From positions 1 to 52,475 of the IMG/VR virus record IMGVR_UViG_3300008266_000146: a stretch of 52,475 nucleotides of DNA; one strand, written 5' to 3'. This DNA is from a virus. This document shows, in pieces, positions 1,264 to 20,635 of the stretch. The notes under the pieces are model-generated. The model saw only the letters and a list, made by a program, of their open reading frames with translations, had not been told where the DNA came from and ran no database searches. The position numbers and the translations under genes were made by a program. Within the stretch, counting starts at the first letter, position 1, and every line of letters begins with the position of its first letter.

Positions 1264-1521
1264 ATGACCCGCATGCCGGGCAGTCGGGAATACGCCATTG
1301 CGTGCTGCGTTCACTGCGGGGTGGCGTGGCCGACGACGCACTTCGTCGCTTACGGTCAGCAGATGCCATACTCATGCAGCGGCGGCGTTCGCTACCACGC
1401 CGTGGCACCGGCCTATATCGTCGACATCCTGCCGGGACATCCCACGCTGACGCGGGGTGTCAATGAGCGCTATCACGTGCTCGCCAAGCTCTTCCACGCC
1501 GCAAAGGAGACAACCTCATGA
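1264..1521 (+). CDS. Cys-motif (zinc-ribbon-like) small protein, family copy A
   Basis: 85 residues. It belongs to a paralogous family in this window, defined by an N-terminal CxxC (here CCVHCGVAW), a third Cys before Gly (CSGG), a YIVDI segment and the tail LAKLFH. The Cys pattern suggests metal binding, but a fourth ligand is not obvious. A GCGCTATCAC repeat (1467-1476) is embedded in the coding sequence. Unlike its relatives, the tail ends HAAKETTS and PAL is absent. Its stop overlaps the next start as ATGA at 1518. The role is unknown. Confidence 0.85.
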   Translation: MTRMPGSREYAIACCVHCGVAWPTTHFVAYGQQMPYSCSGGVRYHAVAPAYIVDILPGHPTLTRGVNERYHVLAKLFHAAKETTS

Positions 1522-1745
1522 CTAAGACCGCGTTCCTCGCCGCGCTCCGCCGGCACCTGATCGACACCTACCAGTGGGCTGCCGACGCGGCGAAACTGGA
1601 CCGCTTCATGGCCAGCGTCGAGGCCACGATCCGTGGGGACGTGAAGACGTGGAACCCCGACGGGGAGGCGTCGACGGCCGCGTGGCGCGAGATCGGCGGC
1701 ACCGGCAAGGTCGCTCTTCGCCGCCTGCGCGAGTTGGCCGAGTAA
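1518..1745 (+). CDS. Small hypothetical protein (75 aa)
   Basis: Translationally coupled to the preceding gene by an ATGA overlap; AAAGGAG lies about 10 bases upstream. The sequence is basic and helical (FLAALRRHLIDTYQWAADAA) and ends RRLRELAE. Its TAA stop is the first arm of PAL-3. No family recognised. Its size and charge would fit a small nucleic-acid-binding or host-takeover protein, which is speculation. Confidence 0.8.
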   Translation: MTKTAFLAALRRHLIDTYQWAADAAKLDRFMASVEATIRGDVKTWNPDGEASTAAWREIGGTGKVALRRLRELAE

Positions 1746-1759
1746 CTTGGGGGAGTAAC
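1742..1759. repeat. PAL-3 inverted repeat, junction copy
   Basis: GTAACTTGGGGGAGTAAC. It contains the stop of the 75-aa gene (1743-1745) and the GGGGGAG ribosome-binding site. The next ATG is at 1761. Confidence 0.9.
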
Positions 1760-1760
1760 C

Positions 1761-2024
1761 ATGCGCTACGCACTGGTGTGCTGCCCCGAATGCGGCGATC
1801 TGTGGACAAAAGCGCGCCGTGACCCGCTGTTCACGCTCGGCGAGCGCACGCCTACAGTATGCAACGGCGAGTTCAAAGGTCGGTTCGGACACGAGCCGAC
1901 ACGTGTGGTCGTCGTCGACCTTGAGCCGGACTACATCGTCGACAGCCGTCACAAGCTGAGCAACCGAGAGAGCGACCGCTACCACACGCTCGCCAAGATA
2001 TTCGCCTCTAACTCCAAGGAGTAA
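1761..2024 (+). CDS. Cys-motif small protein, family copy B
   Basis: 87 residues. N-terminal CCPECGDLW, third Cys in CNGE, then YIVDS, and the tail LAKIFASNSKE. The final NSKE and stop are encoded by PAL-4. It is the clearest match to copy A: both have CxxC within the first 12 residues, a Cys-x-Gly in the middle and YIVD about 20-25 residues before the tail. ATG lies two bases after PAL-3, whose G-rich centre acts as Shine-Dalgarno. Function unknown; metal binding is inferred from the Cys pattern. Confidence 0.88.
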   Translation: MRYALVCCPECGDLWTKARRDPLFTLGERTPTVCNGEFKGRFGHEPTRVVVVDLEPDYIVDSRHKLSNRESDRYHTLAKIFASNSKE

Positions 2025-2025
2025 C
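2008..2025. repeat. PAL-4 inverted repeat, junction copy
   Basis: CTAACTCCAAGGAGTAAC. It encodes the C-terminal NSKE and stop of copy B. AAGGAG is the ribosome-binding site for ATG 2030. Confidence 0.9.
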
Positions 2026-2029
2026 CACC

Positions 2030-2332
2030 ATGGCCAAGATGACTGTCGCCGACGTTGCCACCGCGCTCCGCGATGCCGACGTGTCCACCCTGACCCCGGC
2101 GACCGCGCCGGACTGGCTCAAGATGATCGACTTCCTCCGCCAGCAGACGCTCGCTGCCATCGACGAGGTGGCCCTGCGCGCTGACGCGCTGGACGCACGT
2201 GAGAAGGCGGTCGCGGAGGCTGAAGCTGTGCTCGCCACCCGCAAGGCTGCCGTCGAGCGCATCATGTCCCTGCCGGGTGCGCACCCCGCCACCCCGCCGT
2301 CCACCAAGCGCTCCATGTGGAGCCTCCGGTAA
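2030..2332 (+). CDS. Hypothetical coiled-coil protein (100 aa)
   Basis: Residues about 40-80 are strongly helical with regular Ala/Glu/Arg spacing (LDAREKAVAEAEAVLATRKA), as in a short coiled coil. The tail is Pro/Ser-rich and basic (PATPPSTKRSMWSLR). No enzymatic motif. It sits between PAL-4 and PAL-5 and each supplies a gene boundary, so it is a clean cassette. Function unknown. Confidence 0.83.
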   Translation: MAKMTVADVATALRDADVSTLTPATAPDWLKMIDFLRQQTLAAIDEVALRADALDAREKAVAEAEAVLATRKAAVERIMSLPGAHPATPPSTKRSMWSLR

Positions 2333-2346
2333 CTCAGGAGAGTAAC
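2329..2346. repeat. PAL-5 inverted repeat, junction copy
   Basis: GTAACTCAGGAGAGTAAC. It includes the upstream stop TAA (2330-2332) and an AGGAG ribosome-binding site. The next ATG is at 2349. Confidence 0.9.
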
Positions 2347-2348
2347 CC

Positions 2349-2609
2349 ATGTCCATCTACTGCCCTGCCCAAGGCCCGCCGCGCCTCATCCGGCTCATCC
2401 CCGCGCTCTTCCCCGACGGCTCGCTCGCCGTGCTGGACGAGAGGCGCAACTTCCTCATGGTGTCCGCCCCGCTGTTCGAGGGACTGACGCCCATCCAGCA
2501 GGAGCGGTGCCGGCGCACGACGCGCGCTATCACCATGCCGCATGACGTCGAACACCACCAAGACCCCATCCCCTTTGGCCGCAGCGCCGGCCGTAACTCG
2601 CAGGAGTAA
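2349..2609 (+). CDS. Small hypothetical protein (86 aa)
   Basis: N-terminal part has beta-strand character (RLIRLIPALFPDGSLAVLDE); the C-terminal third is His/Arg/Pro-rich. A GCGCTATCAC repeat lies in the coding sequence at 2522-2531 and gives Ala-Ile-Thr. The last residues RNSQE and the stop come from PAL-6. Not recognised. Confidence 0.78.
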   Translation: MSIYCPAQGPPRLIRLIPALFPDGSLAVLDERRNFLMVSAPLFEGLTPIQQERCRRTTRAITMPHDVEHHQDPIPFGRSAGRNSQE

Positions 2610-2610
2610 C
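2593..2610. repeat. PAL-6 inverted repeat, junction copy
   Basis: GTAACTCGCAGGAGTAAC. It encodes NSQE and the stop of the upstream gene. CAGGAG is the ribosome-binding site of the AAA+ ATPase gene (ATG 2616). Confidence 0.9.
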
Positions 2611-2615
2611 ACCCT

Positions 2616-3716
2616 ATGCCCACCCTTCAGCAGCTTGCCGGCATCATGCCGAACATCCTCGACACCGGCATCAGCGTCGAGTTGATCTCGTCGCCCGGCA
2701 TCGGCAAGTCCGACTTCGTCGAGCAGCTGGTCGCGTCGCGCACCGAGACCACCGGCATCAAGTGGGGCATGTCGCAGGCCTTCCTCGCGACCTACACCCC
2801 GCCGGACCTCATCGGCTACCAGTTCAAGGGTGAGCGCATGTGGCGCTCGCCGCACACTGGCGAGATGGAGCCGGTCGCCGTGACCGATCCGTCCATGCCG
2901 CTGTGGATGATTTCGTCCGAGGGCCGCCCGCTCTACGAGTACGAGCGCGGCATCCTGTTCCTCGACGAGTTCGGGCAGGGTGAGGCTGACGTCAAGCGCG
3001 CGGCGGCGCAATTGCTGCTCAAGCGCGAGATTGGTCCGTGGCGTCTGCCGCCCGGCTGGTCGGTCATGGCCGCGTCCAACCGCGCCAACGACCGCAGCGG
3101 CGTGACCAAGTCGTTCGACTTCGTCATCAACCGGCGCGTCGAGTACCACATCACCCCCGACCTGCTGTCGTGGGACGCATGGGCAATCTCGCGGGGTATC
3201 GACCCGCTGTTCGTGGCCTTCGCCCACCAGCACCCCGAGATTGTCTTCTCCGGCTCCGTGCCGAAGCAGCAGGGTCCGTGGTGCACGCCGCGCTCGCTCG
3301 TCATGGCGCATGACCTGCTCGTGGCGATCTCCGGCGGTGCCGGCCAGCCCATCCGCATGGATGATCTGGGTGCGGAGACCATGCGCGGCACCATTGGCGA
3401 CGCGGCCACGGCGCAGCTCAAGTCGTTCATCGACGTGTCCATGCAGCTGCCCTCGCTGGACGACATCGTCGACGATCCGACGAAGTGCGCGTTGCCGACG
3501 CGTGCGGACGGTCAGATGCTCGTCGTGTTCCAGCTGGCGCACGTTGCGCACAAGGACATCATGCGGCCCGTCGGCACCTACATCAACCGGCTCGGCGCGT
3601 CGTTCGAGACCATGTTCATCAAGCGCCTCATCGGTCGGTCGCCGACGTTCGCCATGGACCCGGTCATCGACAAGATGGTCACCCGCAACGCCCACCTCAT
3701 CCACGCGGTGGCGTGA
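2616..3716 (+). CDS. MoxR-type AAA+ ATPase
   Basis: 366 residues. Walker A SSPGIGKS (25-32), Walker B ILFLDE (113-118) and a sensor-1-like AASNRAND (152-159) identify a P-loop ATPase of the MoxR/AAA_5 type. Such proteins usually act as remodelling ATPases paired with a VWA-domain partner. A VWA protein with a metallopeptidase motif is encoded at 4226-5608, separated by two small genes, so the two probably form a complex. The target is unknown; activation of a virion or host protein, or host takeover, are possible. The start follows PAL-6 with good spacing. A PAL copy and a repeated 63-bp leader follow the stop. Confidence 0.92.
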   Translation: MPTLQQLAGIMPNILDTGISVELISSPGIGKSDFVEQLVASRTETTGIKWGMSQAFLATYTPPDLIGYQFKGERMWRSPHTGEMEPVAVTDPSMPLWMISSEGRPLYEYERGILFLDEFGQGEADVKRAAAQLLLKREIGPWRLPPGWSVMAASNRANDRSGVTKSFDFVINRRVEYHITPDLLSWDAWAISRGIDPLFVAFAHQHPEIVFSGSVPKQQGPWCTPRSLVMAHDLLVAISGGAGQPIRMDDLGAETMRGTIGDAATAQLKSFIDVSMQLPSLDDIVDDPTKCALPTRADGQMLVVFQLAHVAHKDIMRPVGTYINRLGASFETMFIKRLIGRSPTFAMDPVIDKMVTRNAHLIHAVA

Positions 3717-3717
3717 C

Positions 3718-3780
3718 GGTTACTCGCCGGAGTAACGGGGCGCGAATGCCCCACCGCCCCAACAGGAGCACGCACCAATG
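3718..3780 (+). repeat. 63-bp leader duplicated at 6053-6115
   Basis: This block runs from PAL-7 through a small hairpin (GGGGC...GCCCC) and an AACAGGAG ribosome-binding site to the start codon. It is repeated at 6053-6115 with two base differences, one of which turns ATG into GTG. The copies precede different genes, so a PAL-plus-leader unit appears to have been duplicated. Confidence 0.85.
3719..3736. repeat. PAL-7 inverted repeat, intergenic
   Basis: GTTACTCGCCGGAGTAAC. Perfect 7-bp arms. It lies 2 bases after the ATPase stop, at the head of the duplicated leader. Confidence 0.9.
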
Positions 3781-3978
3781 CGCACCACCTACACCATCAC
3801 CCTGCATGCCGATCTGGCTGACGACGCCGAGAAGCAGGCAGCGCTCGACCAGTTCATCCGCGACCGCGCCATCGAGACCATTGCTCTCGTCAAGCTGCTG
3901 GGCCTGTCCCGTCCGCCGGCCATCACGGCGACGCGCCACCGCTATGGCGACGGCACGGTGGACATCGACGTCACATGA
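3778..3978 (+). CDS. Small hypothetical protein (66 aa)
   Basis: Starts at an ATG 9 bases after CAGGAG in the duplicated leader. The predicted order is strand, helix, strand (TYTITLHADL, then a helix, then DGTVDIDVT). It lies between the AAA+ ATPase and VWA genes and ends in an ATGA overlap with the next Cys-motif protein. Not recognised. Confidence 0.78.
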   Translation: MRTTYTITLHADLADDAEKQAALDQFIRDRAIETIALVKLLGLSRPPAITATRHRYGDGTVDIDVT

Positions 3979-4229
3979 CGCGCGCTATCATCGCCGACCG
4001 GCACTGGGCCTGCTGCCCCGACTGCAACAAGATGTGGCAGTCCAAACATCTGCGCGGCTACGCTCTTGGTTGCCGCACCCGGTTTGTGTGTATTTGCAGC
4101 CCACAGCCGCTCGCCCCCGGCGCCCCCCGCCTGATCGCTGTCGGTGACCTGCCGGAGCACAAGCCCGCCAAATACGTCTACGCCATGGCGAAGCTATTCG
4201 CCAGTAACTTGAAGGAGTTACCGAAATGA
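3975..4229 (+). CDS. Cys-motif small protein, family copy C
   Basis: 84 residues. CCPDCNKMWQSKH near residues 13-25 closely matches the other copies. Further Cys residues occur at CRTRFVCIC. The tail is MAKLFASN followed by LKELPK because PAL-8 is read through without a stop. A GCGCTATCAT repeat (3982-3991) is at the 5' end of the gene. Start and stop both use ATGA overlaps, so it is coupled to the genes on each side. A metal-binding role is inferred and the function is unknown. Confidence 0.87.
   Translation: MTRAIIADRHWACCPDCNKMWQSKHLRGYALGCRTRFVCICSPQPLAPGAPRLIAVGDLPEHKPAKYVYAMAKLFASNLKELPK
4204..4221. repeat. PAL-8 inverted repeat with compensatory change
   Basis: GTAACTTGAAGGAGTTAC. 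Both arms differ from consensus but still pair (GTAACT with AGTTAC). It is read through as SNLKEL at the end of copy C and gives AAGGAG as ribosome-binding site for ATG 4226. Confidence 0.9.
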
Positions 4230-5608
4230 AGCTGCTCGAATTGACCCCCGCGCAGAAGGTGGAGTGGGAAGCCACCCGCACAGCGCTCATGTGGAGCGCC
4301 CCGGCGTTCACCCACCTGCTGTTCACCATCCTCGACTACCGGGCGCGCGACAACTACGCCAACGCGTTCTGGACGGACGAGGTGGAGATCGCCGCGACCG
4401 ACGGCTGGCGTCTGCTTCTCAACCCCACGACGTTCTTGGCGATCCCGCTCAAGGACCGCGTGTTCATCGTGGCGCACGAGATCATGCACTGCATCTGGGC
4501 GCACCCCGCCACCATGAAGCACTGGCAGCAGCGTGGCTATGTGGTCGGCGCAAAGGGCGATCACATCCCCTACCACCACGAAGTGCTCAACATCGCTGCC
4601 GACCTCATCATCAACGACCTGCTGATCGACAGCAAGATCGGCACATTCCCGGCCATCGGCGGCCTGCACGACAAGAACCTCGCCACCGCTGTGGACGCCC
4701 TCAACGAGGTGTACGAGCGCGTCTACAACAAGACGCCCAAGCAGCCGCAGGGCGGCAACGGGCAGGGGCAGGGGCAGGGGCAGGGGCAGGGGCAGGGGCA
4801 GGGGCAGCCCGGTCAGGGTAACTCCCCGAGTAACGGTCAGGGTGCCGCCGGCCAGATGCCGTCCCATGGCGGCAAGAAGGCGTTCGACACCATGATGGAC
4901 CCGGACGGCCATCCCGAGGATAAGCCCGCCGACGCCCATGCCAATGGCACGGCGCAGGGTGACGGTCGGTGGCGTCAGGCCATCGCCGAGGCTGCGGCTC
5001 TGGGCAAGGCGCAGGGGCAGCTGCCGGCCGGCATCGCCCGTGTCTTCGCCGAGCTGACGGAGCCCAAGGTCGACTGGTCCGGTGCCATCCGTGGCGCGGT
5101 CGCCCGCCGTGTCGGCTCGTCGGACAGCTCATGGCGTCGCCCGGACCGCCGCATGATCGTGCGCGACATCTACTCGCCCGGTCGCAGCGGTCACGGTGCC
5201 GGCACCATCGCGCTCGTCGGCGACACGTCCGGGTCCATGACCGACACCGAGATCGGCGTCATCCTGCGCGAGTTGCGGGGCATCTTGGAAGACCTCAACC
5301 CGCAGCGTGTCATCGTCATCTGGTGCGACGCCAAGGTCCATGCGGTCGAGGACGTCTACGACGCCAGCGACATCCCCTCCCTGCGGCCCAAGGGTGGCGG
5401 CGGCACCGACTTCCGTCCGCCGTTCCATTGGCTCGACGACGAGAGCATCACGCCGGACGGTATGATCTACGTGACCGACGGCTATGGCACGTTCCCGTCG
5501 AGCGCGCCCGACTACCCTGTGATCTGGGCCGACATCACCGGCCCCGGTCGCGTCGCCTACCCGTGGGGGGACGTCATTAACATCCCCCGCGACAGCCTCG
5601 CCGAGTAA
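4226..5608 (+). CDS. Putative metallopeptidase with C-terminal VWA domain (DUF2201-like)
   Basis: 460 residues. An HExxH motif (HEIMH, 84-88) lies in a helical N-terminal domain. A low-complexity Gly-Gln linker (about 179-203) follows, with PAL-9 immediately after it, encoding NSPSN. The C-terminal domain has the MIDAS sequence DTSGS (from residue 333), then GGGTDF and YVTDG, as in von Willebrand A-like domains. This layout is that of the DUF2201 family, whose genes usually neighbour a MoxR ATPase, as here. The protein is presumably the partner of the ATPase at 2616-3716. Whether it cleaves anything is not known. The stop is the first arm of PAL-10. Confidence 0.9.
   Translation: MKLLELTPAQKVEWEATRTALMWSAPAFTHLLFTILDYRARDNYANAFWTDEVEIAATDGWRLLLNPTTFLAIPLKDRVFIVAHEIMHCIWAHPATMKHWQQRGYVVGAKGDHIPYHHEVLNIAADLIINDLLIDSKIGTFPAIGGLHDKNLATAVDALNEVYERVYNKTPKQPQGGNGQGQGQGQGQGQGQGQPGQGNSPSNGQGAAGQMPSHGGKKAFDTMMDPDGHPEDKPADAHANGTAQGDGRWRQAIAEAAALGKAQGQLPAGIARVFAELTEPKVDWSGAIRGAVARRVGSSDSSWRRPDRRMIVRDIYSPGRSGHGAGTIALVGDTSGSMTDTEIGVILRELRGILEDLNPQRVIVIWCDAKVHAVEDVYDASDIPSLRPKGGGGTDFRPPFHWLDDESITPDGMIYVTDGYGTFPSSAPDYPVIWADITGPGRVAYPWGDVINIPRDSLAE
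4760..4807 (+). repeat. Tandem hexanucleotide repeat, GGGCAG x 8
   Basis: Eight uninterrupted GGGCAG units encode (Gly-Gln)8 in the linker between the peptidase and VWA domains. Such a tract is prone to slippage in steps of two residues, which would change linker length without shifting the frame. A shorter related stretch occurs near base 90-106 in the first gene. Confidence 0.95.
4818..4834. repeat. PAL-9 inverted repeat, inside VWA gene
   Basis: GTAACTCCCCGAGTAAC (17 bp). Read as Gly-Asn-Ser-Pro-Ser-Asn in the flexible linker. Confidence 0.88.
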
Positions 5609-5622
5609 CTTCGCCGAGTAAC
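5605..5622. repeat. PAL-10 inverted repeat, junction copy
   Basis: GTAACTTCGCCGAGTAAC. Its first arm contains the stop of the VWA gene (5606-5608). It is not directly before a start. Confidence 0.88.
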
Positions 5623-5623
5623 C

Positions 5624-5650
5624 GGGGGCGCGCTATCACGGCGCGCTCCC
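5624..5650 (+). other. Strong hairpin in leader of the 124-aa gene
   Basis: GGGGGCGCGC and GCGCGCTCCC can pair over about 10 bp, leaving TATCACG as the loop. The GCGCTATCAC repeat (5630-5639) therefore sits at the loop. It follows PAL-10 and precedes AACAGGAG and the start at 5674. It may be a terminator without T-run or a translational control element. Confidence 0.45.
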
Positions 5651-5673
5651 ACCACCCCAACAGGAGAACACCC

Positions 5674-6048
5674 ATGAAATCCTACCGCCGCAATGATCGT
5701 GAAGAGACGCGCGAAATCGAGCCCATTACGCTGGACTTGCCCGCCGCGCTCATCCACAAGCCGCTGCACGTCGTCACCATGGGCGCAAAGGCCACCGCGA
5801 TTGTCTACGAGACGGCCAACCGCGTCTGGAGCAGCGACCGTACCAACTATTTCGACGCTCCCGTGTTTCGTGTGGTGCTCACCGGGTTCAGCGACGCCGC
5901 GCGCAGCCGGCTGGCGTACTACAATGGGCACCGCGACGACGCCCAATGCTTCACCACTCTGCTCGACGTCGAGCTGTTCATTCGCGCGGCTGCCGTGGCG
6001 TGCGCCCCGGTCAAGAAGCGCGTCACGGTCGTCGAGGAAGACGTCTGA
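5674..6048 (+). CDS. Hypothetical protein (124 aa)
   Basis: Start follows CAGGAGAACACCC. The N-terminus is charged (RRNDREETREIEP), then a mixed alpha/beta body, ending KKRVTVVEEDV. No known motif. The gene stands alone between two PAL-led leaders. The stop is followed by PAL-11 and the second copy of the 63-bp leader. Confidence 0.8.
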   Translation: MKSYRRNDREETREIEPITLDLPAALIHKPLHVVTMGAKATAIVYETANRVWSSDRTNYFDAPVFRVVLTGFSDAARSRLAYYNGHRDDAQCFTTLLDVELFIRAAAVACAPVKKRVTVVEEDV

Positions 6049-6052
6049 CGGC

Positions 6053-6115
6053 GGTTACTCGCCGGAGTAACGGGGCGCGAATGCCCCACCACCCCAACAG
6101 GAGCACGCACCAGTG
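6053..6115 (+). repeat. 63-bp leader, second copy
   Basis: Differs from the block at 3718-3780 at two positions. Here it drives a 17-codon ORF with a GTG start instead of a normal gene. Confidence 0.85.
6054..6071. repeat. PAL-11 inverted repeat, intergenic
   Basis: GTTACTCGCCGGAGTAAC. Identical to PAL-7 including the 4-base centre, because it is part of the duplicated leader. Confidence 0.9.
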
Positions 6116-6166
6116 CCCATCAAGCCGCCGCTCGCCAAGCTCTTCCACGCTAACTCGCAGGAGTAA
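6113..6166 (+). pseudogene. 17-codon remnant of a Cys-motif family gene, copy D
   Basis: A GTG after the duplicated leader opens a short frame that reads MPIKPPLAKLFHANSQE and stops in PAL-12. LAKLFH and NSxE are the family tail; the Cys-containing body is missing. It looks like a deletion that joined the leader of one gene to the last codons of a Cys-motif paralogue. It may still be translated as a short peptide, since the ribosome-binding site and start are intact. Confidence 0.7.
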
Positions 6167-6167
6167 C
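6150..6167. repeat. PAL-12 inverted repeat, junction copy
   Basis: CTAACTCGCAGGAGTAAC. It encodes NSQE and stop of the remnant. CAGGAG is the ribosome-binding site for ATG 6172. Confidence 0.9.
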
Positions 6168-6171
6168 CACC

Positions 6172-6402
6172 ATGGCTAGCCACTACTACGCTGAATGCGC
6201 CAGCGGCAAATCGCGCGCCAGCCGCACCGGCACTCTGAAGACCGGCATCCGCGCCGTCGTCGCGTCGTGGCAGGGGGCGTGCCACACCACCCTCTACGAC
6301 AAGGACGGCGTCACTTATGTCCGCGTGCATCTGGCGTTGTGGGGTGGCAAGGGCACGTCCAAGCTGATCTACGACGGCCCCGTCGGGGAGTACGCGCCGT
6401 GA
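6172..6402 (+). CDS. Small hypothetical protein (76 aa)
   Basis: Starts 4 bases after PAL-12. The N-terminal region has Tyr, Cys and Arg/Ser residues (HYYAECASGKSRASR), followed by strand-like segments (GVTYVRVHLALWGG). It ends GEYAP, and its terminal bases GGGGAGTACGCGCCGTGA recur at the end of the next gene. GTGA overlap with the following start. Not recognised. Confidence 0.8.
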   Translation: MASHYYAECASGKSRASRTGTLKTGIRAVVASWQGACHTTLYDKDGVTYVRVHLALWGGKGTSKLIYDGPVGEYAP

Positions 6403-6671
6403 GCAATCCCCGCACCCACAGGCCGGGGCCGGGCTTTGCCGGCGACGCCGTCGAGCATGTGCGGCTCTACCATGGCGTCATGGACCTGCACAGCAAGAAC
6501 ATCCTGCGCACCATATTGCGCGGTGCGCTCGACAGCCACGCCCATATCGTCAAGGGACTGGCCGGCACCGCGACGCAGGCTTGGTTCGAGGACACGTTCA
6601 AGAACGACGTCGCGGCAGTCAACGATGCGATCTCGCTGCTGGACAGTAGCTCAGGGGAGTACGCGCCGTGA
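6399..6671 (+). CDS. Hypothetical protein (90 aa), GTG start
   Basis: The GTG at 6399 overlaps the previous stop (GTGA) and is preceded by GGGGAG, so it is preferred over internal ATGs. The protein is mostly helical (ILRTILRGALDSHAHIVKGLAG). It ends SSGEYAP, the same GEYAP-stop as the gene before. The final GTAGCTCAGGGGAGTACG is a degenerate PAL. Function unknown. Confidence 0.78.
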   Translation: MSNPRTHRPGPGFAGDAVEHVRLYHGVMDLHSKNILRTILRGALDSHAHIVKGLAGTATQAWFEDTFKNDVAAVNDAISLLDSSSGEYAP

Positions 6672-6991
6672 AGTATTTCGTCGCTGGCTGCCCGACATGC
6701 GGGCGGGTGTGGCAGTCCACCCATGCGCCGCTGCAACAGCTTAGCTCTCATTATGGGCTCTGTCGCGGCGGCACTGGCAGCCAAAAATACCCTATGACCG
6801 GCGACGAGATTGGACCTATCGCCGAGCATGTCACCTCGATGTATATCGTGTACATGCACGACCAGCCGCTAGCCGTCCGCAGCCATCAGTATAGGGAGGT
6901 AAACGGGCCGATCACCACCCTTTTACCCGCTGACGAACATGCTAGACTGTGGGCGCTCGCGAAGCTCTTCCACAGTAACTCCACGGAGTAA
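6668..6991 (+). CDS. Cys-motif small protein, family copy E
   Basis: 107 residues from a GTG start that overlaps the preceding stop, with GGGGAG upstream. N-terminal GCPTCGRVWQSTH matches copies B and C closely. The third Cys is in LCRGG, then MYIVYMHD, and the tail is LAKLFHSNSTE, with NSTE and the stop from PAL-13. It is longer than A-C because of an insertion before the tail. Function unknown; metal binding inferred. Confidence 0.87.
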   Translation: MKYFVAGCPTCGRVWQSTHAPLQQLSSHYGLCRGGTGSQKYPMTGDEIGPIAEHVTSMYIVYMHDQPLAVRSHQYREVNGPITTLLPADEHARLWALAKLFHSNSTE

Positions 6992-6992
6992 C
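6975..6992. repeat. PAL-13 inverted repeat, junction copy
   Basis: GTAACTCCACGGAGTAAC. It encodes NSTE and stop of copy E. CGGAG is the ribosome-binding site for ATG 6997. Confidence 0.9.
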
Positions 6993-6996
6993 CTCC

Positions 6997-7575
6997 ATGA
7001 CCGCTGTCCAGATCGTAGGGTTGTGTGGCGTAGCGCGTGCCGGCAAGACCTCGACGGCCAACTTCATGAAGGTGGACAAGGGCTTCACCAACATCAGGTT
7101 CACCGACAGCATGGCCAAGATATGTCTCGCTGCCGGCCTGACACCCGACCACGTCGACGGACGCCTCAAGGACACCCCGGAGCCGTTACTCGGGGGAGCA
7201 ACACCCCGGCAGTTCATGGTTGGCATCGGGCGCACGCTGCGCGCGTTCAACCCCGAGTTCTTCCCCGAACACTGGCGCAGGCAGGTGCGCGCTATCACGC
7301 CGACGCTGCACCCCATGCTCCGCAAGATCGTCGCTGACGACGTCCGCACGCCCGCTGAAGCCGCTGCGATCAAGGCCGAGGACGGCGTCCTCATCCGCAT
7401 CATCCCCACCTATCCGGCCTATGCCAACGCCACCAGAGGCATCGACTATGACCCTGCGACTGAAGACCAGCAATTCGACGTCGACCACACCGTCCGCAAC
7501 GCCGGAAGCGCGTTCGAGCTTGCCGGACAAGTCTACGCCATCCTCGCCGCGACATGGCCGCGTCCTCTCGGGTGA
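6997..7575 (+). CDS. Deoxynucleoside monophosphate kinase
   Basis: 192 residues. P-loop GVARAGKT (11-18) near the N-terminus, GGATPR (about 67-72) and ADDVR (113-117) are hallmarks of phage dNMP kinases related to T4 gp1. These phosphorylate dNMPs to dNDPs to feed phage DNA synthesis. PAL-14 overlaps the segment before TPR but is read in a different frame from other intragenic copies. A GCGCTATCAC repeat lies at 7289-7298. The size fits the family. The stop is just before the next GTG start. Confidence 0.88.
   Translation: MTAVQIVGLCGVARAGKTSTANFMKVDKGFTNIRFTDSMAKICLAAGLTPDHVDGRLKDTPEPLLGGATPRQFMVGIGRTLRAFNPEFFPEHWRRQVRAITPTLHPMLRKIVADDVRTPAEAAAIKAEDGVLIRIIPTYPAYANATRGIDYDPATEDQQFDVDHTVRNAGSAFELAGQVYAILAATWPRPLG
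7185..7202. repeat. PAL-14 inverted repeat, inside dNMP kinase gene
   Basis: GTTACTCGGGGGAGCAAC, with one arm mismatch. Read as Leu-Leu-Gly-Gly-Ala-Thr, the only intragenic copy not in the Ser-Asn frame. Confidence 0.75.
7289..7298 (+). repeat. GCGCTATCAY dispersed repeat (representative copy)
   Basis: Nine plus-strand copies of GCGCTATCAY are at 948, 963, 1467, 2522, 3982, 5630, 7289, 9536 and 12413 (first bases). Some are in genes, some in leaders. None was found right of 12.5 kb. Role unknown. Confidence 0.7.
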
Positions 7576-7576
7576 C

Positions 7577-7900
7577 GTGCTCGCCATCGGGTACTGCCCG
7601 GCGTGCGACAAAGCCGTGTACCGCACGTTCAAGGCCAAGACCATTCACAAGCGCCAGTGGGGCATCGGCAGCGCTGCCTATCAGTGCGTCGGCGATGTTG
7701 TGCAGTCGCATGGGTTTCCTTACAGGGTGCGTACATGGGCGCATCCCGGCGAGTTCGTGACGTTGATCCAGATCAAACCCGTCGCCAGACAGCTGGGTCG
7801 GCGCTCCGCGCCTACGCTCCCTGTAAACCCTAACATCCTGTCTGACAAAGCGCGTGCGCTCATGGCGATCCTCGCGTCCAGCCGTCACTCGGTGGAGTAA
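7577..7900 (+). CDS. Cys-motif small protein, family copy F, GTG start
   Basis: 107 residues. GTG 7577 is the only suitable start ahead of the motif and lies 1 base after the preceding stop. YCPACDKAV is the CxxC; the third Cys is in YQCVGD, and FVTLIQI occupies the YIV position. The tail (ALMAILASSRHSVE) is divergent but still ends in a PAL-encoded Glu-stop. It is the most diverged full-length copy. Function unknown. Confidence 0.75.
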   Translation: MLAIGYCPACDKAVYRTFKAKTIHKRQWGIGSAAYQCVGDVVQSHGFPYRVRTWAHPGEFVTLIQIKPVARQLGRRSAPTLPVNPNILSDKARALMAILASSRHSVE

Positions 7901-7901
7901 C
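7884..7901. repeat. PAL-15 inverted repeat, junction copy
   Basis: GTCACTCGGTGGAGTAAC. It ends copy F (TAA 7898-7900) and supplies GGAG for ATG 7904. Confidence 0.88.
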
Positions 7902-7903
7902 CC

Positions 7904-8586: not shown

Positions 8587-8588
8587 CG

Positions 8589-13634: not shown

Positions 13635-13635
13635 C
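13618..13635. repeat. PAL-22 inverted repeat, junction copy
   Basis: GTAACTCGGGGGAGTAAC, identical to PAL-2. It ends the 112-aa gene and gives the ribosome-binding site for ATG 13637. Confidence 0.9.
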
Positions 13636-13636
13636 A

Positions 13637-14035: not shown

Positions 14036-15512
14036 GCAGTTCGTCTTTCGGGGCAAGCCGCGCCTTGTCCTGCCGCACGACATTCAGGCGACCCTGACGC
14101 TGCGCCAGCTGGGCATGGACGTGCCGGCTCCGGTCATGTCGCAGTACGATTGGCCGCACCCCCCGTCCAAGCCGCCGTTCGAGGTGCAGAAGAAGACCGT
14201 GGCTATGCTGACCACGTGCCCGCGCGCCTACGTGCTCAACGACATGGGCACCGGCAAGACCGCGAGCGCCGTATGGGCGTTCGATTACTTGGCGAGTAAC
14301 GGCTACGCCACCAAGATGCTGGTCGTGTGCCCGCTGTCCACGATGGAGGAAACGTGGCTCCGGCATGTGATCGAGTTCACGCCCGACCGCAAGGCGGTAG
14401 TGCTGTCCGGCACTGCTACGCGGCGCAAGCGCCTGCTGGCTGACCAGTCGGCGGACATCTACATCATCAACCATGACGGCGTGCAGGTGGTGCTGGACGA
14501 GCTGTACAAGCGCCCCGACATCGACTGCGTGTGCATCGACGAGCTGGCGGTCTACCGCAACGCCCGCGCCAACCGCACGAAGGCGATGACGAAGTTCGTC
14601 GCGCGCCGCCCGTGGGTCTGGGGTCTGACCGGCCGCCCGGCACCCCATGAGCCCACCGACGTGTGGGCGCAGTGCCAGATCGTCACGCCCCACACCGTGC
14701 CGACCCGCTGGACGACGTTCCGCGATGACCTGATGTTCAAGGTCGGCGCGTTCAACTGGGTGTCGAAGGACAACGCTGTCGAGACCGCCGTCATGGCCAT
14801 GCGCCCCGCCGTGCGGTTCTCCATGGACGACGTCACCGAGCTGCCCGACTTGGTGTTCGAGACGGTCACGACGCCGATGGAGAGCAAGCAGGCGCAGGCG
14901 TTCGAGATGATGCGCGCCAGCGCTGTGGCCAAGATCGCGTCCCACCAGATCGACGCCATGAATGCGGGCGCGGTGCTCAACAAGCTGCTGCAAATCTCGG
15001 CAGGCTGGGTCTACACTCGCGACGGGCACATCCTCGACATGAAGGGGACCGGCAGGCTGCGGCGGGTGGAGGACGACGTCGAGGCTAACAGCGGCAAGAC
15101 CATCGTGTTCGTGCCGTTCGTGTCCGCTCTGGACGGCGTTGCCGATGCACTTACTCGGGCGGGTAACCGTGTCGCCAAAATCTCTGGTGCCACCCCGTCG
15201 CGCGAGCGCACCGACATCTTCGCCGGGCTTCAGACGCATGACCTGTATGACGTGCTGGTCGCCCACCCGCAGTGCATGGCTCATGGCGTCACGCTGACGG
15301 CGGCCAACCAGATCATCTGGTACGCCCCGACGACCAGCCTTGAGATATTCGAGCAGGCCAACGCACGCATTCGCCGCGTCGGTCAGAAAAAGAAACAGAT
15401 CATCCGCATGTATGTGGGCTCGACGGCCGAGCGTCGCATCTATACAATCCTACGAAGCCGGCAAAAAGTCCAAGATAAGATGTTGGAGCTATTCCAAGCC
15501 AACACGATCTAA
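13944..15512 (+). CDS. SNF2/DEAD-type superfamily 2 helicase
   Basis: 522 residues. Walker A DMGTGKT (100-106), motif II IDEL (D199-E200), motif III-like GLTGRP, and a C-terminal helicase half with FVPFVSAL, the segment VTLTAANQIIWYAP and the arginine-rich motif ARIRRVGQ (about 474-481). This is the helicase commonly found with VRR-NUC and DNA polymerase genes in phages. It carries two PAL copies, PAL-23 just after motif I and PAL-24 in the C-terminal half, both read in frame. The start follows CGGAGATAGAGA and overlaps the nuclease gene. Confidence 0.94.
   Translation: MSLAEVMVSATYRSIVVPHRADVANLFPSSKQFVFRGKPRLVLPHDIQATLTLRQLGMDVPAPVMSQYDWPHPPSKPPFEVQKKTVAMLTTCPRAYVLNDMGTGKTASAVWAFDYLASNGYATKMLVVCPLSTMEETWLRHVIEFTPDRKAVVLSGTATRRKRLLADQSADIYIINHDGVQVVLDELYKRPDIDCVCIDELAVYRNARANRTKAMTKFVARRPWVWGLTGRPAPHEPTDVWAQCQIVTPHTVPTRWTTFRDDLMFKVGAFNWVSKDNAVETAVMAMRPAVRFSMDDVTELPDLVFETVTTPMESKQAQAFEMMRASAVAKIASHQIDAMNAGAVLNKLLQISAGWVYTRDGHILDMKGTGRLRRVEDDVEANSGKTIVFVPFVSALDGVADALTRAGNRVAKISGATPSRERTDIFAGLQTHDLYDVLVAHPQCMAHGVTLTAANQIIWYAPTTSLEIFEQANARIRRVGQKKKQIIRMYVGSTAERRIYTILRSRQKVQDKMLELFQANTI
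14284..14300. repeat. PAL-23 inverted repeat, inside helicase gene
   Basis: ATTACTTGGCGAGTAAC (17 bp). Read as Asp-Tyr-Leu-Ala-Ser-Asn between motifs I and Ia. Confidence 0.85.
15150..15167. repeat. PAL-24 inverted repeat, inside helicase gene
   Basis: CTTACTCGGGCGGGTAAC. Read as Leu-Thr-Arg-Ala-Gly-Asn; second arm has one change (GGGTAAC). Confidence 0.8.
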
Positions 15513-15540
15513 CCTACTATCGCACCCACGGAGAAGCACC

Positions 15541-15924
15541 ATGTCATTCGAGAAGCGCATCGCGCAGTACGTAAGACTACGCGACCACATCAAGGCCGAG
15601 GACGAGGCTCACAAGGTCAAGATGCGGCCGTTTCGCGACTTGATGGGCAAGCTGGAAGCGGAGCTGCTGAAACAGCTGGAAGCCACTGGTCAGGACAGCG
15701 CCGCCACTGCCGCCGGTACCGCCTACCGCAGCAAGCGCGAGTATTGCTCGCTGGAAGACGCCAGCGAGTTCATGCGCCACGTCATCGGCAGCGAGGACTG
15801 GGACCTGCTCGACCGCAAGGCCAACACCGCTGCCTGTGTGAAATTCGCCGAAGAGAACGGTGGCAACATGCCGCCGGGCGTCAAGTACACTGCCGAGTTC
15901 GTCGCGAACGTTCGTCGGAAGTGA
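15541..15924 (+). CDS. Conserved-looking phage protein (127 aa) upstream of SSB-like gene
   Basis: Start after CGGAGAAGCACC. The N-terminal half is a charged helix (YVRLRDHIKAEDEAHKVKMR) and the C-terminal part ends MPPGVKYTAEFVANVRRK. Proteins with this coiled N-terminus and PPGV...VRR ending are often found beside replication genes in tailed phages, with no known function. Probably works with the SSB-like or polymerase proteins. Confidence 0.83.
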   Translation: MSFEKRIAQYVRLRDHIKAEDEAHKVKMRPFRDLMGKLEAELLKQLEATGQDSAATAAGTAYRSKREYCSLEDASEFMRHVIGSEDWDLLDRKANTAACVKFAEENGGNMPPGVKYTAEFVANVRRK

Positions 15925-15942
15925 ATTACTCCACCGAGTAAC
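15925..15942. repeat. PAL-25 inverted repeat, intergenic
   Basis: ATTACTCCACCGAGTAAC. Starts directly after the TGA of the 127-aa gene and ends 22 bases before the SSB-like start. Confidence 0.88.
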
Positions 15943-15964
15943 CCCTGAGAGAAGAGGACATACT

Positions 15965-17272
15965 ATGAGCAAAGCGCTCGTCAACGTCGATCCGTTCGCA
16001 GCCATGGCTGCACAGTTCGCCCTGCCCGCCGTCTTCGCCAACCAGCCCGTGCAGGATGAGCTGGGTGCCGGTATCGAAGGCTCGTTCGGCATCGTCGGCT
16101 ACAAGGGCAAGGTCTGGCGCATCCGCTATCGAGGCAACGAGGAGGTCGTCACCCGTATCGACGACGGCACCCCGGCAGCCGCGCTTGAGCTGGTTATCGT
16201 CAAGGCCAGCCCCCACAAGGCCAAGACCTATTACGCCGGCTCGTTCGTCGAGGGCACGCAGGAGCGCCCCGACTGCTGGTCGAACAACGGCGTGACGCCG
16301 GACCCCGGCGTGACCAACCCGGTTCACACCGCCTGCGCCACGTGTCCGATGAACGTGTTCGGCTCCAAGACGTCCGACAACGGCTCCAAGGCCAAGGCGT
16401 GTCAGGACCACAAGCGCGTCGCCGTCGTGCCGCTCGACGACATGATGAACGAGAGCGGCGGTGGGCCGATGCTGCTGCGCATCCCCCCGGCGTCGCTTCA
16501 GGCCGCCAAGGAGTACGGCGACAACCTCACGCGGGCGAACATCCCGATCTATGCCGTCGGCACGCGCGTGCTGTTCGACATGAACGTGGCGCACCCGCAG
16601 TTCATCTTCAAGCCGATCCGCGTGCTGACGGACGAGGAAGCCGAGTACATCAACGCCCTGCGCACCGACCCCCGCGTCGACCGCATCCTCAACGAGGGGA
16701 CGGACTTCGCGGCGGCTGCGGCGTTGGAGGCTCCCCCGCTGCCCGACGAGTTCTCTGCGCTCGCCGATCAGGCCGCTGCCAAGGCTACGGCCCCCAAGGC
16801 TGCCGCCCCCAAGCCGGCGTCGGCCACGGCCGCCGTGCAGGCCGCCGCTGCCAAGGCTGCCGCTCCCGCCGCCAAGGCCCCTGTAGCGGCTCCCAAGGCC
16901 GTTGCGCCGCCTCCGAAGGCTCCGGTGGCCCCCAAGGCTGCCGCGCCCGCCCCTGCGGCTCCCAAGGCCGCTGCCGCGCCGGTTACTCCGGCGAGTAACG
17001 CTACCCCGGCCGTCAAGCCGTCTGCGGCACAGGTGCTGGCCAATGCCCGCGCCAAGCAGGCCGCTGCTGCCGCAGCCGCAGCCGCCGCTGCCGCAGCCGC
17101 CGCAGCCGCTGAAGCCGCCGCTGCCGAGGCGGAGGGTGGCGAGGTGATCGAGGGTGAGTACGCCGAAGAGGGCGAGTACACCGAAGAGGGCGCTGAGGGC
17201 GCTGAGGGCGCTGAGGGCGAAGCGACCGTCGACGATCTCGACGCCGAGCTGAAGGCGCTGATGGGCGATTGA
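15965..17272 (+). CDS. SSB-like Cys-motif protein with Ala-rich linker and acidic tail
   Basis: 435 residues. Start at ATG 15965, since upstream codons overlap the previous gene. The N-terminal 270 residues are a folded domain with a Cys cluster (CATCPMNVFGSK, then KACQDHKR). An Ala/Lys/Pro linker follows, with a run of about 17 Ala, then repeated acidic EGEY/AEGAEG units and the end DDLDAELKALMGD. An acidic, hydrophobic tip after a flexible linker is typical of single-stranded DNA-binding proteins. That, and the location between helicase and primase, suggest an SSB role. This is inference, as no OB-fold signature is evident. PAL-26 encodes VTPASN in the linker. Confidence 0.8.
   Translation: MSKALVNVDPFAAMAAQFALPAVFANQPVQDELGAGIEGSFGIVGYKGKVWRIRYRGNEEVVTRIDDGTPAAALELVIVKASPHKAKTYYAGSFVEGTQERPDCWSNNGVTPDPGVTNPVHTACATCPMNVFGSKTSDNGSKAKACQDHKRVAVVPLDDMMNESGGGPMLLRIPPASLQAAKEYGDNLTRANIPIYAVGTRVLFDMNVAHPQFIFKPIRVLTDEEAEYINALRTDPRVDRILNEGTDFAAAAALEAPPLPDEFSALADQAAAKATAPKAAAPKPASATAAVQAAAAKAAAPAAKAPVAAPKAVAPPPKAPVAPKAAAPAPAAPKAAAAPVTPASNATPAVKPSAAQVLANARAKQAAAAAAAAAAAAAAAAAEAAAAEAEGGEVIEGEYAEEGEYTEEGAEGAEGAEGEATVDDLDAELKALMGD
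16982..16999. repeat. PAL-26 inverted repeat, inside SSB-like gene
   Basis: GTTACTCCGGCGAGTAAC. Perfect arms, read Val-Thr-Pro-Ala-Ser-Asn in a disordered Ala/Pro linker. Confidence 0.9.
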
Positions 17273-17287
17273 GCCCGAGCACATGCG

Positions 17288-17309
17288 GGGCCGGGGGAAA
17301 CTCCGGCCC
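17288..17309 (+). other. Hairpin between SSB-like and primase genes
   Basis: GGGCCGG (17288-17294) pairs with CCGGCCC (17303-17309) with an 8-base loop. It is followed by TAACTACCTC rather than a T-run. It may act as a weak terminator or slow read-through into the primase gene. Confidence 0.45.
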
Positions 17310-17339
17310 TAACTACCTCTTGGGACATGGGCGGCGGCA

Positions 17340-20300
17340 GTGAACATCAACGAGGCGAAAAGGTATCTGGCACGTGTTCTGCCATGGCCAACCGACGGGG
17401 GTGACTGGTTCGTCAACCTCCACACCCTGCGCGACGTTGGGCGTCGCGACAAGAAGGGCAAGCCGATCCTGATGCCGGGCGGGCGTCCGTTCAAGGACGT
17501 CGGGCGCGCGGCGAACGCGATTGAGTGGTGGCTGACCAAGAGCCAGCACAACACGGACATCTACGCCTGCATGTCGGCACAGGCCACGGCTGTGACCCGG
17601 TACGACGACAACGGCAAGGCGTTCCTGACGGCGGTGCGCAACACCCAGAACACGCTGTGGTGCAAGTCGCTCTACATCGACGTCGACGTGAAGGCGCCGC
17701 CCAAGGGCTACGCAACCCGCGAGGAAGCGCTTGAGGCGATCAACGCGTTCATCGAGGCTCTTGGCATGCCGGAGCCCAGCGTCATCGTCGACAGCGGCAA
17801 CGGCTTCCATGTCTACTGGACCGTCGTGGACCCGGTCACTCCGGCGCAATGGTGGCCCTATGCCTACGCGCTCGCCGAGGCTACCAAGGCGTTCGGGCTG
17901 CGCTGCGATACCCAGTGCACCGTGGACGTGGTGCGCATCCTGCGCGTGCCGGGCACCTACAACTACAAGTCCGATCCGCCGACCACGGTCTCGATCCACC
18001 ACTGGCGGGACGGCGACTATTTCTGGAAGCATCTGACGGGGCCGTTGGAGCCCTACGTCGGCAGGGTGGTGATCGAGACCGATATGTCGCAGGAGTTCGC
18101 GGCGCTCGGGCGCATGTCCGGGCCGATGGTGGCTAACGAGCTGGGATCGGGCATCGAGCCGAACAAGGCACCAGAGGTGGACCTTGCGAAGGTCATCAAT
18201 GATTGCGCGTTTTTCCGTGACACTGTGGTGGACGGCGGGGCGAAGAACGACAACCCCCTCTGGGTGCTGACGCTGCTGGCGGCGACGTTCTGCGGCGAGG
18301 ACGGGGCGGAGCTGGCGCAGGCGATGTCCGCCGGCCATGAGACCTATGACCCCGACACCGTGGCGACGCGCTACGCCGAGAAGCTGGCCGAGAAGACCCG
18401 CCGCAATCTGGGTTGGCCGTCGTGCAAGGCGATCTCCGGTGCCGGTGCGCCGCAGTGCTCCACGTGCCCCCATCTGGCTGCCGGCAAGAGCCCGATGCGG
18501 TTCGGCATGCCGGACGATGTTACTCTCGCGAGTAACACCCCGCCACCCCGCCCGGTGCCCGCCGCCGTGCAGGCGCTGTCGCAGCAGACCGGCATCTACC
18601 AGATCGCCATGAACACTCTGCCGGACGACTACGTCCGTCGGCCGAACGGCATCATCGCTCAGGTGGTCACTCCGTCCGATGGTGGTGCCCAGTTCGAGCA
18701 GGCTGTGTGCCCCTACCCGCTGTTTGATGGCTGGCTTCAGCGTGACCCGTGGACGATCAACTTCTCGACCGTCGTGTCGGGTGGTAAGCAGGAGCGCGTC
18801 GCAGTCCGCTACGAGGACATGAGCGGGTCCGAGACGTTCCGCAAGACAGTGCTGCGGTTCGGGTTGGCGTTCGACAGCGAGAAGACGTTTGAAAGGCTGA
18901 AGGTGTTTCTCATGGCATGGATTAACAAGCTGCGCGACGGCCCCCTCGCCATTGGGTCCGGCCATACGTTTGGCTGGTCGACGAACGGCACCAAAGAGGA
19001 CGGTTTCATCTACGACGGGCATCTGTATGGGATGGACCCGGAACCCCGCCCCATGGCCATTGCCGACCCGGTGATCGCCGAACAGTACCGCCCCCGTGGC
19101 GACATAGGTCCGTGGGTTGACGCGCTCGACATCGTGCTGGGGCGCGAGCGCTACGACCTTGAGGCTATCGTGGCGTCGGCGTTCGCCGCACCGCTGGTGA
19201 AGTTCACCGGGCACTCGGGCCTCATCATGGCGGCGTACTCGGAAGCCTCGGGCGTCGGCAAGACCACGGCGATGAAGATCGCGCAGGCTGTGTGGGGCGA
19301 CCCCAAGCGCGCCATGCAGCAGCTCGACGACACCCAAAACTCGGTGTTCAAGAAGATCGGTCAGATCAAGAACCTGCCGATGTACTGGGACGAGATCAAG
19401 GGCGAAGAGAACCTGAAAAACTACGTGCGCATGATCTTCTCCATGGCCTCGGGCAAGGAGAAGTCCCGCATGCGCGCCGATGCCACCATGAACCTGTCCG
19501 GCACGTGGAAGACGCTTCTCGTTTCGGCGAACAATGAGAGCCTGATCGACTACATCATCCGGCAGACCAAGCAGACGAGCGCCGGCCTCATGCGCGTGTT
19601 CGAGTACCCCGTGGTGTCCCGGTCGGACGGCAGCATGAAGACATCGTCCGTGCAGGCCTCTCTGGGGCTGCTGGACGAGAATTACGGGCAGGCCGGGCTC
19701 ATCTACGCCAAGTGGCTCGGAGCCAACTGGGAGCGCGTTGCCAAGGACGTGCTGGCCATGTCGTCGGCATTCGAGAAGCGGGCCAAGGCCACGACCGACG
19801 AGCGGTTCTGGATCGCCCTCATCGCCGTGCTTGTCCTCGGGGCAACCTACGCCAACAAGCTTGGGCTGGCGCAGTTCAACACGGCGAAGCTGCGGGAGTT
19901 TCTGTTCGAGCAGCTGGAAGCGATGCGGGGTGTGGGGGACGCCCAGCCGGTGGATATGTCCAAGGGCATCAACGTCGTCAACGTCCTGTCCCGGTTCCTC
20001 GCGCAGAAGCGGGCGCGCAACACCCTCATCACCAACCGCATGCACGTGTCTCGCGGCAAGCCGCCTGCCGGGATCAACACCCTCAACGAGGCGACCAAGC
20101 TGGACGAAATTCAGGTCCATATGTCGGTCGACGACAAGCTGCTGCGGATCGTCTCGTCGGCGTTCTCGGACTGGTGTCAGGAGCACGGCATCTCGCGCCA
20201 CCAGTTCACCAAGGCACTGCACGACCAGTTCAACGTGCACGAGACGGTGGGCATCATCGGGGCCGGCACGCCCTACAAGTCGATGGCGCAGTACGTCATC

Positions 20301-20348
20301 CAGCTCGATCTTGCCGACCTCAAGATACAGCCGTTCATGGATACCTGA
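17340..20348 (+). CDS. Primase-polymerase fused to DUF927-like helicase
   Basis: 1002 residues from GTG 17340. The N-terminal AEP-type primase has IDVD (113-116), GFHVYW (H157) and VDVVRI (D196) with RVPGTYN, the metal and nucleotide ligands of that superfamily. A Cys cluster (CKAISGAGAPQCSTCPH, about 362-378) may bind zinc or an Fe-S cluster. The C-terminal half has Walker A SGVGKTT (637-643) and LPMYWDEIKG, as in DUF927/SF3-like helicases. It would prime and unwind at the phage fork, replacing a T7-type TOPRIM primase-helicase. PAL-27 lies in the linker between the halves. Confidence 0.92.
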   Translation: MNINEAKRYLARVLPWPTDGGDWFVNLHTLRDVGRRDKKGKPILMPGGRPFKDVGRAANAIEWWLTKSQHNTDIYACMSAQATAVTRYDDNGKAFLTAVRNTQNTLWCKSLYIDVDVKAPPKGYATREEALEAINAFIEALGMPEPSVIVDSGNGFHVYWTVVDPVTPAQWWPYAYALAEATKAFGLRCDTQCTVDVVRILRVPGTYNYKSDPPTTVSIHHWRDGDYFWKHLTGPLEPYVGRVVIETDMSQEFAALGRMSGPMVANELGSGIEPNKAPEVDLAKVINDCAFFRDTVVDGGAKNDNPLWVLTLLAATFCGEDGAELAQAMSAGHETYDPDTVATRYAEKLAEKTRRNLGWPSCKAISGAGAPQCSTCPHLAAGKSPMRFGMPDDVTLASNTPPPRPVPAAVQALSQQTGIYQIAMNTLPDDYVRRPNGIIAQVVTPSDGGAQFEQAVCPYPLFDGWLQRDPWTINFSTVVSGGKQERVAVRYEDMSGSETFRKTVLRFGLAFDSEKTFERLKVFLMAWINKLRDGPLAIGSGHTFGWSTNGTKEDGFIYDGHLYGMDPEPRPMAIADPVIAEQYRPRGDIGPWVDALDIVLGRERYDLEAIVASAFAAPLVKFTGHSGLIMAAYSEASGVGKTTAMKIAQAVWGDPKRAMQQLDDTQNSVFKKIGQIKNLPMYWDEIKGEENLKNYVRMIFSMASGKEKSRMRADATMNLSGTWKTLLVSANNESLIDYIIRQTKQTSAGLMRVFEYPVVSRSDGSMKTSSVQASLGLLDENYGQAGLIYAKWLGANWERVAKDVLAMSSAFEKRAKATTDERFWIALIAVLVLGATYANKLGLAQFNTAKLREFLFEQLEAMRGVGDAQPVDMSKGINVVNVLSRFLAQKRARNTLITNRMHVSRGKPPAGINTLNEATKLDEIQVHMSVDDKLLRIVSSAFSDWCQEHGISRHQFTKALHDQFNVHETVGIIGAGTPYKSMAQYVIQLDLADLKIQPFMDT
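18519..18536. repeat. PAL-27 inverted repeat, inside primase gene
   Basis: GTTACTCTCGCGAGTAAC. Perfect arms; read Val-Thr-Leu-Ala-Ser-Asn in a Pro-rich linker after the Cys cluster. Confidence 0.9.
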
Positions 20349-20365
20349 TTACTCGGGGGAGTAAC
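20348..20365. repeat. PAL-28 inverted repeat, junction copy
   Basis: ATTACTCGGGGGAGTAAC. Shares its first A with the primase stop TGA. GGGGGAG serves ATG 20369. Confidence 0.9.
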
Positions 20366-20368
20366 TTC

Positions 20369-20635
20369 ATGCGCTATATCGTCTGCGCCACCTGCGGGTC
20401 GTCTAGAGCGCTCCCGGTGTCACCGGCACCGGCAAGCACGCGAGAGGACGTCATATGCAGCGTCGTTGGGGCCGGCACCCATGTCGGGACGTGCGCGCAT
20501 TGCACGTCTGGCTTCGACGCGACGGTCGGCAGGAAATACGTCGTGGAGAGCGACACCCTCGACCACCACAAGCTCCATACCCTAGCGAAGCTGTTTGACT
20601 GCACCACAGGAGACACCAAGCATGGCCGCCCCTAG
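20369..20635 (+). CDS. Cys-motif small protein, family copy H
   Basis: 88 residues. CATCGSSR (CxxC), then Cys residues at ICSV and CAHC, so a full four-Cys set is possible here. YVVESD takes the YIV place and the tail is LHTLAKLFDCTTGDTKHGRP, extended by read-through where other copies end in PAL. It lies at the far end of the early arm, 8 kb from its nearest relative. Overlaps the next gene slightly. Function unknown. Confidence 0.85.
   Translation: MRYIVCATCGSSRALPVSPAPASTREDVICSVVGAGTHVGTCAHCTSGFDATVGRKYVVESDTLDHHKLHTLAKLFDCTTGDTKHGRP

Follow-up and report, generated by a model that had tools for sequence, protein, structure and literature searches.

Why does one phage encode several small proteins with a common cysteine motif, and what have their genes to do with the short dyad (PAL) that lies at many of their ends? 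The question is raised by the window analysed here, the full IMG/VR record IMGVR_UViG_3300008266_000146 of an uncultured phage (52,475 bp) related to phages of nitrogen-fixing soil bacteria. The 33-kb contig IMGVR_UViG_3300008450_000224 represents the same genome (99.95-100% across the stretches compared). The closest annotated isolate is Rhizobium phage RHph_TM3_14A (MN988472.1), with 47.6% identity in the DNA polymerase and 56.6% in the terminase, and another relative (polymerase 54%) is a 60.6-kb contig from a Bradyrhizobium assembly. This contig, NZ_PSRT01000042.1 (L144; 60,568 bp), is identical in extent to the IMG/VR record L007 and is therefore probably a phage genome carried inside the assembly. 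The host of the window phage likely belongs to the Rhizobiales.

Membership and distribution of the Cys-motif genes

An earlier note on this DNA had counted seven full copies and one remnant. Open reading frames were confirmed at all seven starts, by which the genes are named here, and all lie on the plus strand (Table 1); the start of 7577 is uncertain, a GTG without a clear Shine-Dalgarno sequence. In a leave-one-out test, an HMM profile was built from six ORFs and the seventh was scored against 3000 shuffles of itself. None of the shuffles scored as high as 1761 (39.9 bits), 6668 (38.0 bits), 1264 (22.4 bits) or 3975 (18.3 bits), whereas 20369 (9.0 bits) was reached by 5, 11550 (5.3 bits) by 20 and 7577 (2.2 bits) by 234 of them. 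The test was repeated with the sequence past the C-terminal motif removed, because PAL can itself encode the frequent N-S-x-E-stop ending. After trimming, the number of equally good shuffles per 2000 was 0 for 1264, 1761 and 6668, 2 for 3975, 31 for 20369, 61 for 11550 and 98 for 7577. With a profile of the first four copies, hhalign gave a probability of 40% for 20369, 3.8% for 11550 and 2.5% for 7577, compared with 0.06% for an unrelated protein of the window; across the whole genome the same profile recovered its own four copies and 20369 (E 0.375).

Table 1. Cys-motif genes, PAL-associated repeats and dispersed dyads in the window
Feature	Position	Strand	Details
Family copy	1264..1521	+	85 aa; PAL 1244-1261 directly upstream of start
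Family copy	1761..2024	+	87 aa; PAL flanks both sides
Family copy	3975..4229	+	84 aa; 3'-end PAL
Family copy	6668..6991	+	107 aa, GTG start; 3'-end PAL
Borderline member	20369..20635	+	88 aa; PAL upstream of start, none at end
Possible member	11550..11942	+	130 aa; PAL flanks both sides
Possible member	7577..7900	+	107 aa; 3'-end PAL
Remnant	6113..6166	+	17 codons, beginning with GTG; C-terminus of the family type that ends in PAL 6150-6167
Chimeric block, PAL near each end	6052..6176	+	leader like 3717-3787, then family 3' end like 1987-2034
PAL and leader, other duplicate copy	3717..3787	+	repeat comparison; matches 6052-6122 at 94%
Dispersed PAL dyads, GTTAC-N7/8-GTAAC	715..50826	.	38 sites, at most 1 mismatch

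These sequence comparisons establish at least four diverged paralogs in the genome (1264, 1761, 3975 and 6668), with 3975, 1264 and 6668 each 32% identical to 1761. The gene 20369 is a borderline member, and membership of 7577 and 11550 is unproven, their scores being inseparable from chance. The earlier count thus stands as far as reading frames are concerned, but homology is supported for four of them only. The remnant, which is translated as VPIKPPLAKLFHANSQE followed by a stop codon, agrees with the 3' end of 1761 in 85% over 48 nt of DNA.

The protein defined by the four copies comprises 84-107 residues. It carries CxxC in its N-terminal part, another Cys 20-24 residues downstream and (L/M)AK(L/I)F in its C-terminal part; two Cys, the Trp, A-K and F are invariant among the four. 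The motif described before as shared by all copies is present in a looser form. CPxC is found in five of the seven candidates, the exceptions being 1264 (CVHC) and 20369 (CATC), and a W follows five residues further on in four. The strict W-(Q/T)-(S/T)-x-H occurs in 3975 and 6668 (2/7), while 1264 reads WPTTH. C-x-G and YIV are each present in four candidates and AK(L/I)F in six, 7577 having LMAIL instead; in 11550 this last element sits 40 residues ahead of the C-terminus.

As the earlier note had stated, the copies stand singly among unrelated genes, here the small genes of the left region. Other small CxxC proteins are encoded in the same region of relatives. A DUF2201 metallopeptidase/VWA-like protein is encoded at 4226-5608, next to an ATPase-like gene (2616-3716) whose relatives in RHph_TM3_14A are annotated as ATPase domain-containing. 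The 127-residue protein of 15541-15924 has no Pfam match and is conserved at 34-51% in most polymerase relatives and RHph_TM3_14A. The early region also carries nine copies of GCGCTATCA, all on the plus strand (948, 963, 1467, 2524, 3982, 5630, 7289, 9536, 12413) and none on the minus strand, with 0.32 expected over both strands. Its core, CGCTATCA, occurs only once in RHph_TM3_14A. This repeat is perhaps an early promoter element.

Relatives of the family were sought in several collections with queries that differed by collection. With the four-copy profile, 24 further records, among them the whole of RHph_TM3_14A and some that are possibly fragments, gave no match at E≤1. IMG/VR scans with five copies (1761, 6668, 3975, 1264 and 20369) gave no relative outside the own genome, the one contig matched by 20369 being itself the same genome. 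A scan of GTDB contigs with 1264 gave no relative, tblastn of 1761, 6668 and 11550 against 50,697 phage records no match below E 1, and a search of 397 genomes from a single bacterial order no relative outside the window genome; the scans rely on exact peptide words and detect close relatives only. A lone match in the 397 genomes (L145) was rejected, as it contains three internal stop codons and the local ORFs are repeat-bearing without CxxC. Nothing convincing was obtained from the Bradyrhizobium genome of L144, from a four-copy profile search of PDB sequences, or as a family match in Pfam, PHROGs, NCBIfam and PADLOC (lowest PHROG E-values 0.0055 with 7577 and 0.025 with 11550; lowest Pfam E-value 0.18). 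As far as the collections searched reach, this family of small phage proteins without a relative appears confined to the present phage lineage.

Lack of relatives elsewhere, together with the existence of a deleted remnant, would be expected if the copies were duplicates with no role at present, either neutral or in decay. However, copies that are only about 32% identical retain open frames, the Cys positions and AK(L/I)F, and therefore selection is implied; we consider it improbable that the copies are idle.

A predicted zinc ribbon and its possible role

In zinc ribbons, two knuckles between beta-hairpins provide four Cys/His ligands. AlphaFold modelling of 1761 from the four-sequence alignment gave a pLDDT of 76.4 and a pTM of 0.68, with two of five models being poor (pLDDT 56.9 and 40.3). 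The model consists of strands at residues 3-7, 14-18, 29-34 and 47-55 and a helix at 68-84 that includes AKIF. C8 and C11 are placed in the turn that joins strands 1 and 2, C34 and H44 in the one joining strands 3 and 4. On this model, the fold of 1761 is likely a single zinc ribbon followed by a C-terminal helix, and the small proteins probably bind zinc. The fourth ligand varies, as 3975 does not have the His of the others at this place and the next His of 6668 lies 22 residues on. For 11550 predicted alone the pLDDT was 37.

The check for a zinc ribbon by structure prediction that the earlier note had proposed gives a ribbon-like model. Searched with the 1761 model by Foldseek, neither PDB nor BFVD yielded a match at E≤0.001. 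In the VIA structure comparison with 44 chains the top Z was 4.0, for PriA; this match was rejected as meaningful, being within the chance range for VIA. Chains at Z 2.4-3.0 include bL33-type chains, SIRT6 and an archaeal release factor, which we take to be zinc ribbons.

Zinc ribbons often bind nucleic acids, and the copies could accordingly serve replication or transcription, e.g. as accessories of RNA polymerase or primase, rather than as host-directed adaptors. PriA as the top weak structure match and the basic character of three candidates (pI 8.8-10.2) would be in line with such a role. However, a Z of 4.0 is not beyond chance with this tool, and the family was not found in relatives having the same replication genes, so that we regard a function of this kind as unlikely. 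Over all seven candidates the pI ranges from 7.0 to 10.2 with a net charge near neutral in four, and charge points to no particular target.

We tentatively favour a different explanation, which we hold to be quite possible without calling it probable: the copies would be lineage-specific small zinc-ribbon adaptors, probably early and host-directed, that arose by dispersed duplication, with PAL as a separate dyad. Each copy would fold around one zinc. The conserved C-terminal helix would attach every copy to the same partner, a complex of either phage or host. Targets would differ from copy to copy through the variable ribbon and linker, and in this way duplication would have produced a small set of early, probably host-directed adaptors. 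It is the position of the genes that suggests early timing and host targets; zinc, fold, partner and adaptor function are what we infer for the copies. Several paralogs with a fixed C-terminal helix turn the shared partner into a tractable question.

The dyad in the window and its relatives

In this genome and among its relatives, the dyad is more surprising than the Cys family. GAGTAAC occurs 51 times in the window compared with 1.9 expected, and PAL at up to 2 mismatches is found at 32 sites compared with 0.06 expected. At up to 1 mismatch, the dyads counted in Table 1 face 0-1 sites in three Markov shuffles; RHph_TM3_14A has 58 sites and its Markov shuffles 1-2. Dyads with spacings of 5, 6, 9 or 10 are absent from the window, three are present in RHph_TM3_14A, and some relatives have a few, e.g. 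L012 with six at spacing 9. At least 8 sites were counted in 18 of 27 sequences and 0-6 in the other nine, the set comprising the window, RHph_TM3_14A, 17 polymerase relatives and 8 ATPase relatives, some of which are near copies of each other. The arms differ between genomes: TTACTC in the window, TTACC-N6-GGTAA of the AGGTAAC type in RHph_TM3_14A, TAACT and AACTG dyads in L011 and L018.

Along the window the dyads are spaced more evenly than random in the early part (CV 0.56, p 0.0012) and in the late part from 20348 onwards (CV 0.39, p 0.001), measured on 41 sites with the two weakest (13049 and 47348) omitted. Evenness is less clear for the entire window (p 0.07) and for RHph_TM3_14A (p 0.045). 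Of the 58 sites in the latter, 38 are internal to annotated genes and 14 intergenic, the other 6 overlapping the end of a gene. The simplest reading is that PAL is a putative site for a dimeric DNA-binding protein. A candidate binder is the HTH_3 protein encoded at 8362-8586 (E 2.8e-6), for which only weak matches were seen, in L011 (E 0.002) and L018 (E 0.004). Since the dyad fills isolated Rhizobium phage genomes, its binder could be fished for directly, and this protein would reveal whether PAL serves immunity, organises the genome or has some other role.

In the early region PAL often spans the stop codon (G-TAA-C in the left arm) together with the GGAG of the next gene. Com of phage Mu controls the translation of mom, and the copies might in a similar way recognise PAL in the mRNA, as a hairpin that covers the Shine-Dalgarno sequence, and so control the following gene. 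Apart from the many early junctions with stop codon and GGAG under PAL, this would agree with arm position 6, where mismatches on the transcribed strand are more often of the G.U than of the A.C type (56 vs 35, p 0.035; L006 contributes 15 to 3). Position 7, however, leans to A.C (36 vs 52, p 0.11), and both positions together give 92 G.U-type and 87 A.C-type mismatches, with gene directions assigned by block. Because the two types balance, the dyad overall appears to be without a net sign of an RNA stem, one genome being readable in this way. Moreover, PAL is present in relatives in which no member of the family was found, and none of the seven candidates matches the Com profile in Pfam at E≤10 in a search whose HMMER filters discard most matches above about 0.1. 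Control of translation by a Com-like mechanism is in our view highly improbable.

PAL and the spread of the copies

According to the earlier note, the family was linked to PAL and possibly spread by PAL-mediated duplication. PAL does lie at the 3' end of five of the seven candidates, and the remnant also ends in it, but this is unspecific: the same holds for 14 of 28 other genes (p=0.41). On the 5' side it is found at 4 of 7 candidates and 10 of 28 other genes (p=0.40). Both comparisons involve small numbers and cover the genes in 1-21.1 kb, from a list compiled by hand.

Spread by PAL would imply that gene-plus-PAL units recombine at PALs, which then form the seams by which the Cys gene is scattered. 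DNA similarity between copies indeed spans PAL, with 79-85% identity over some 48 nt that begin at the motif and reach the following start codon. The block at 6052-6176 is chimeric, with 94% over 71 nt to 3717-3787 and 85% over 48 nt to 1987-2034. In addition, 1264 may end in a decayed PAL junction, as 11, 17 and 35 of 2000 shuffles were as good when its 3' end was compared with three intact junctions; the same interpretation is unsupported for the 3' end of 20369 (93 to 413 of 2000 shuffles as good). From the sequence of the block we conclude on one rearrangement between PAL-bearing places; that PAL drove it does not follow, and a single chimera can be explained by ordinary homologous recombination. 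Furthermore, PAL is equally frequent in relatives without a detected family, it is also located inside genes, and the ends of the family genes are not significantly richer in it. Recombination of such cassettes is distinctly unlikely in our judgement, and the proposal of a PAL-driven spread is not upheld, the block being its sole sign.

In the duplicated leader of 3717-3787 and 6052-6122, PAL is combined with a short inverted repeat rich in G+C and with CACC(A/G)CCCCAACAGGAG. By eye, a similar but weaker leader is seen at 5605-5672, after the PAL at 5605.

A broader view would combine both elements. A clade of Rhizobiales phages would spread a 17-18 bp dyad genome-wide, at a density near one per kilobase in RHph_TM3_14A. 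The arms are genome-specific but internally consistent, as though they co-evolved with a single DNA-binding protein of the phage, and in the present genome PAL-bearing junctions would also be the recombination seams that scatter a zinc-ribbon gene into early effectors. As a whole we rate this as quite improbable. If instead the copies are adaptors that arose by dispersed duplication, the ancestral gene probably had a PAL-bearing junction of stop codon and Shine-Dalgarno sequence, which moved along with the copies, and PAL at the 3' ends would be unrelated to the function of the family.

In the literature within reach, which leaves out most subscription papers, neither the dyad nor the family was found described. 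A MEME search for 20-40 bp repeated motifs in alphaproteobacterial phages has been published (PMC10783043); a term search in it returned no palindrome, inverted repeat or RHph_TM.

Among known systems, the small CxxC or zinc-ribbon proteins of phages resemble the window family in their small size, the N-terminal CPxC and the modelled strand-knuckle-strand layout. Unlike them, the window family is without a convincing Pfam, PHROGs or NCBIfam match, has a conserved AKLF helix and is represented by several paralogs in a single genome. RHph_TM3_14A is likewise rich in the dyad, but the Cys family was not found across its whole record. Mu Com (cf. PMC6483171) is likewise a small phage zinc protein near a hairpin-like element at a translation start, whereas PAL overall does not resemble an RNA stem. 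The closest parallels to PAL itself are dispersed repressor sites, the L5 stoperators and the phiC31 sites, which are also many genome-wide copies of one site of protein-binding type, located within and between genes. The L5 stoperators are described as asymmetric and monomer-bound (PMC4557955), whereas PAL forms a dyad for which two spacings are allowed.
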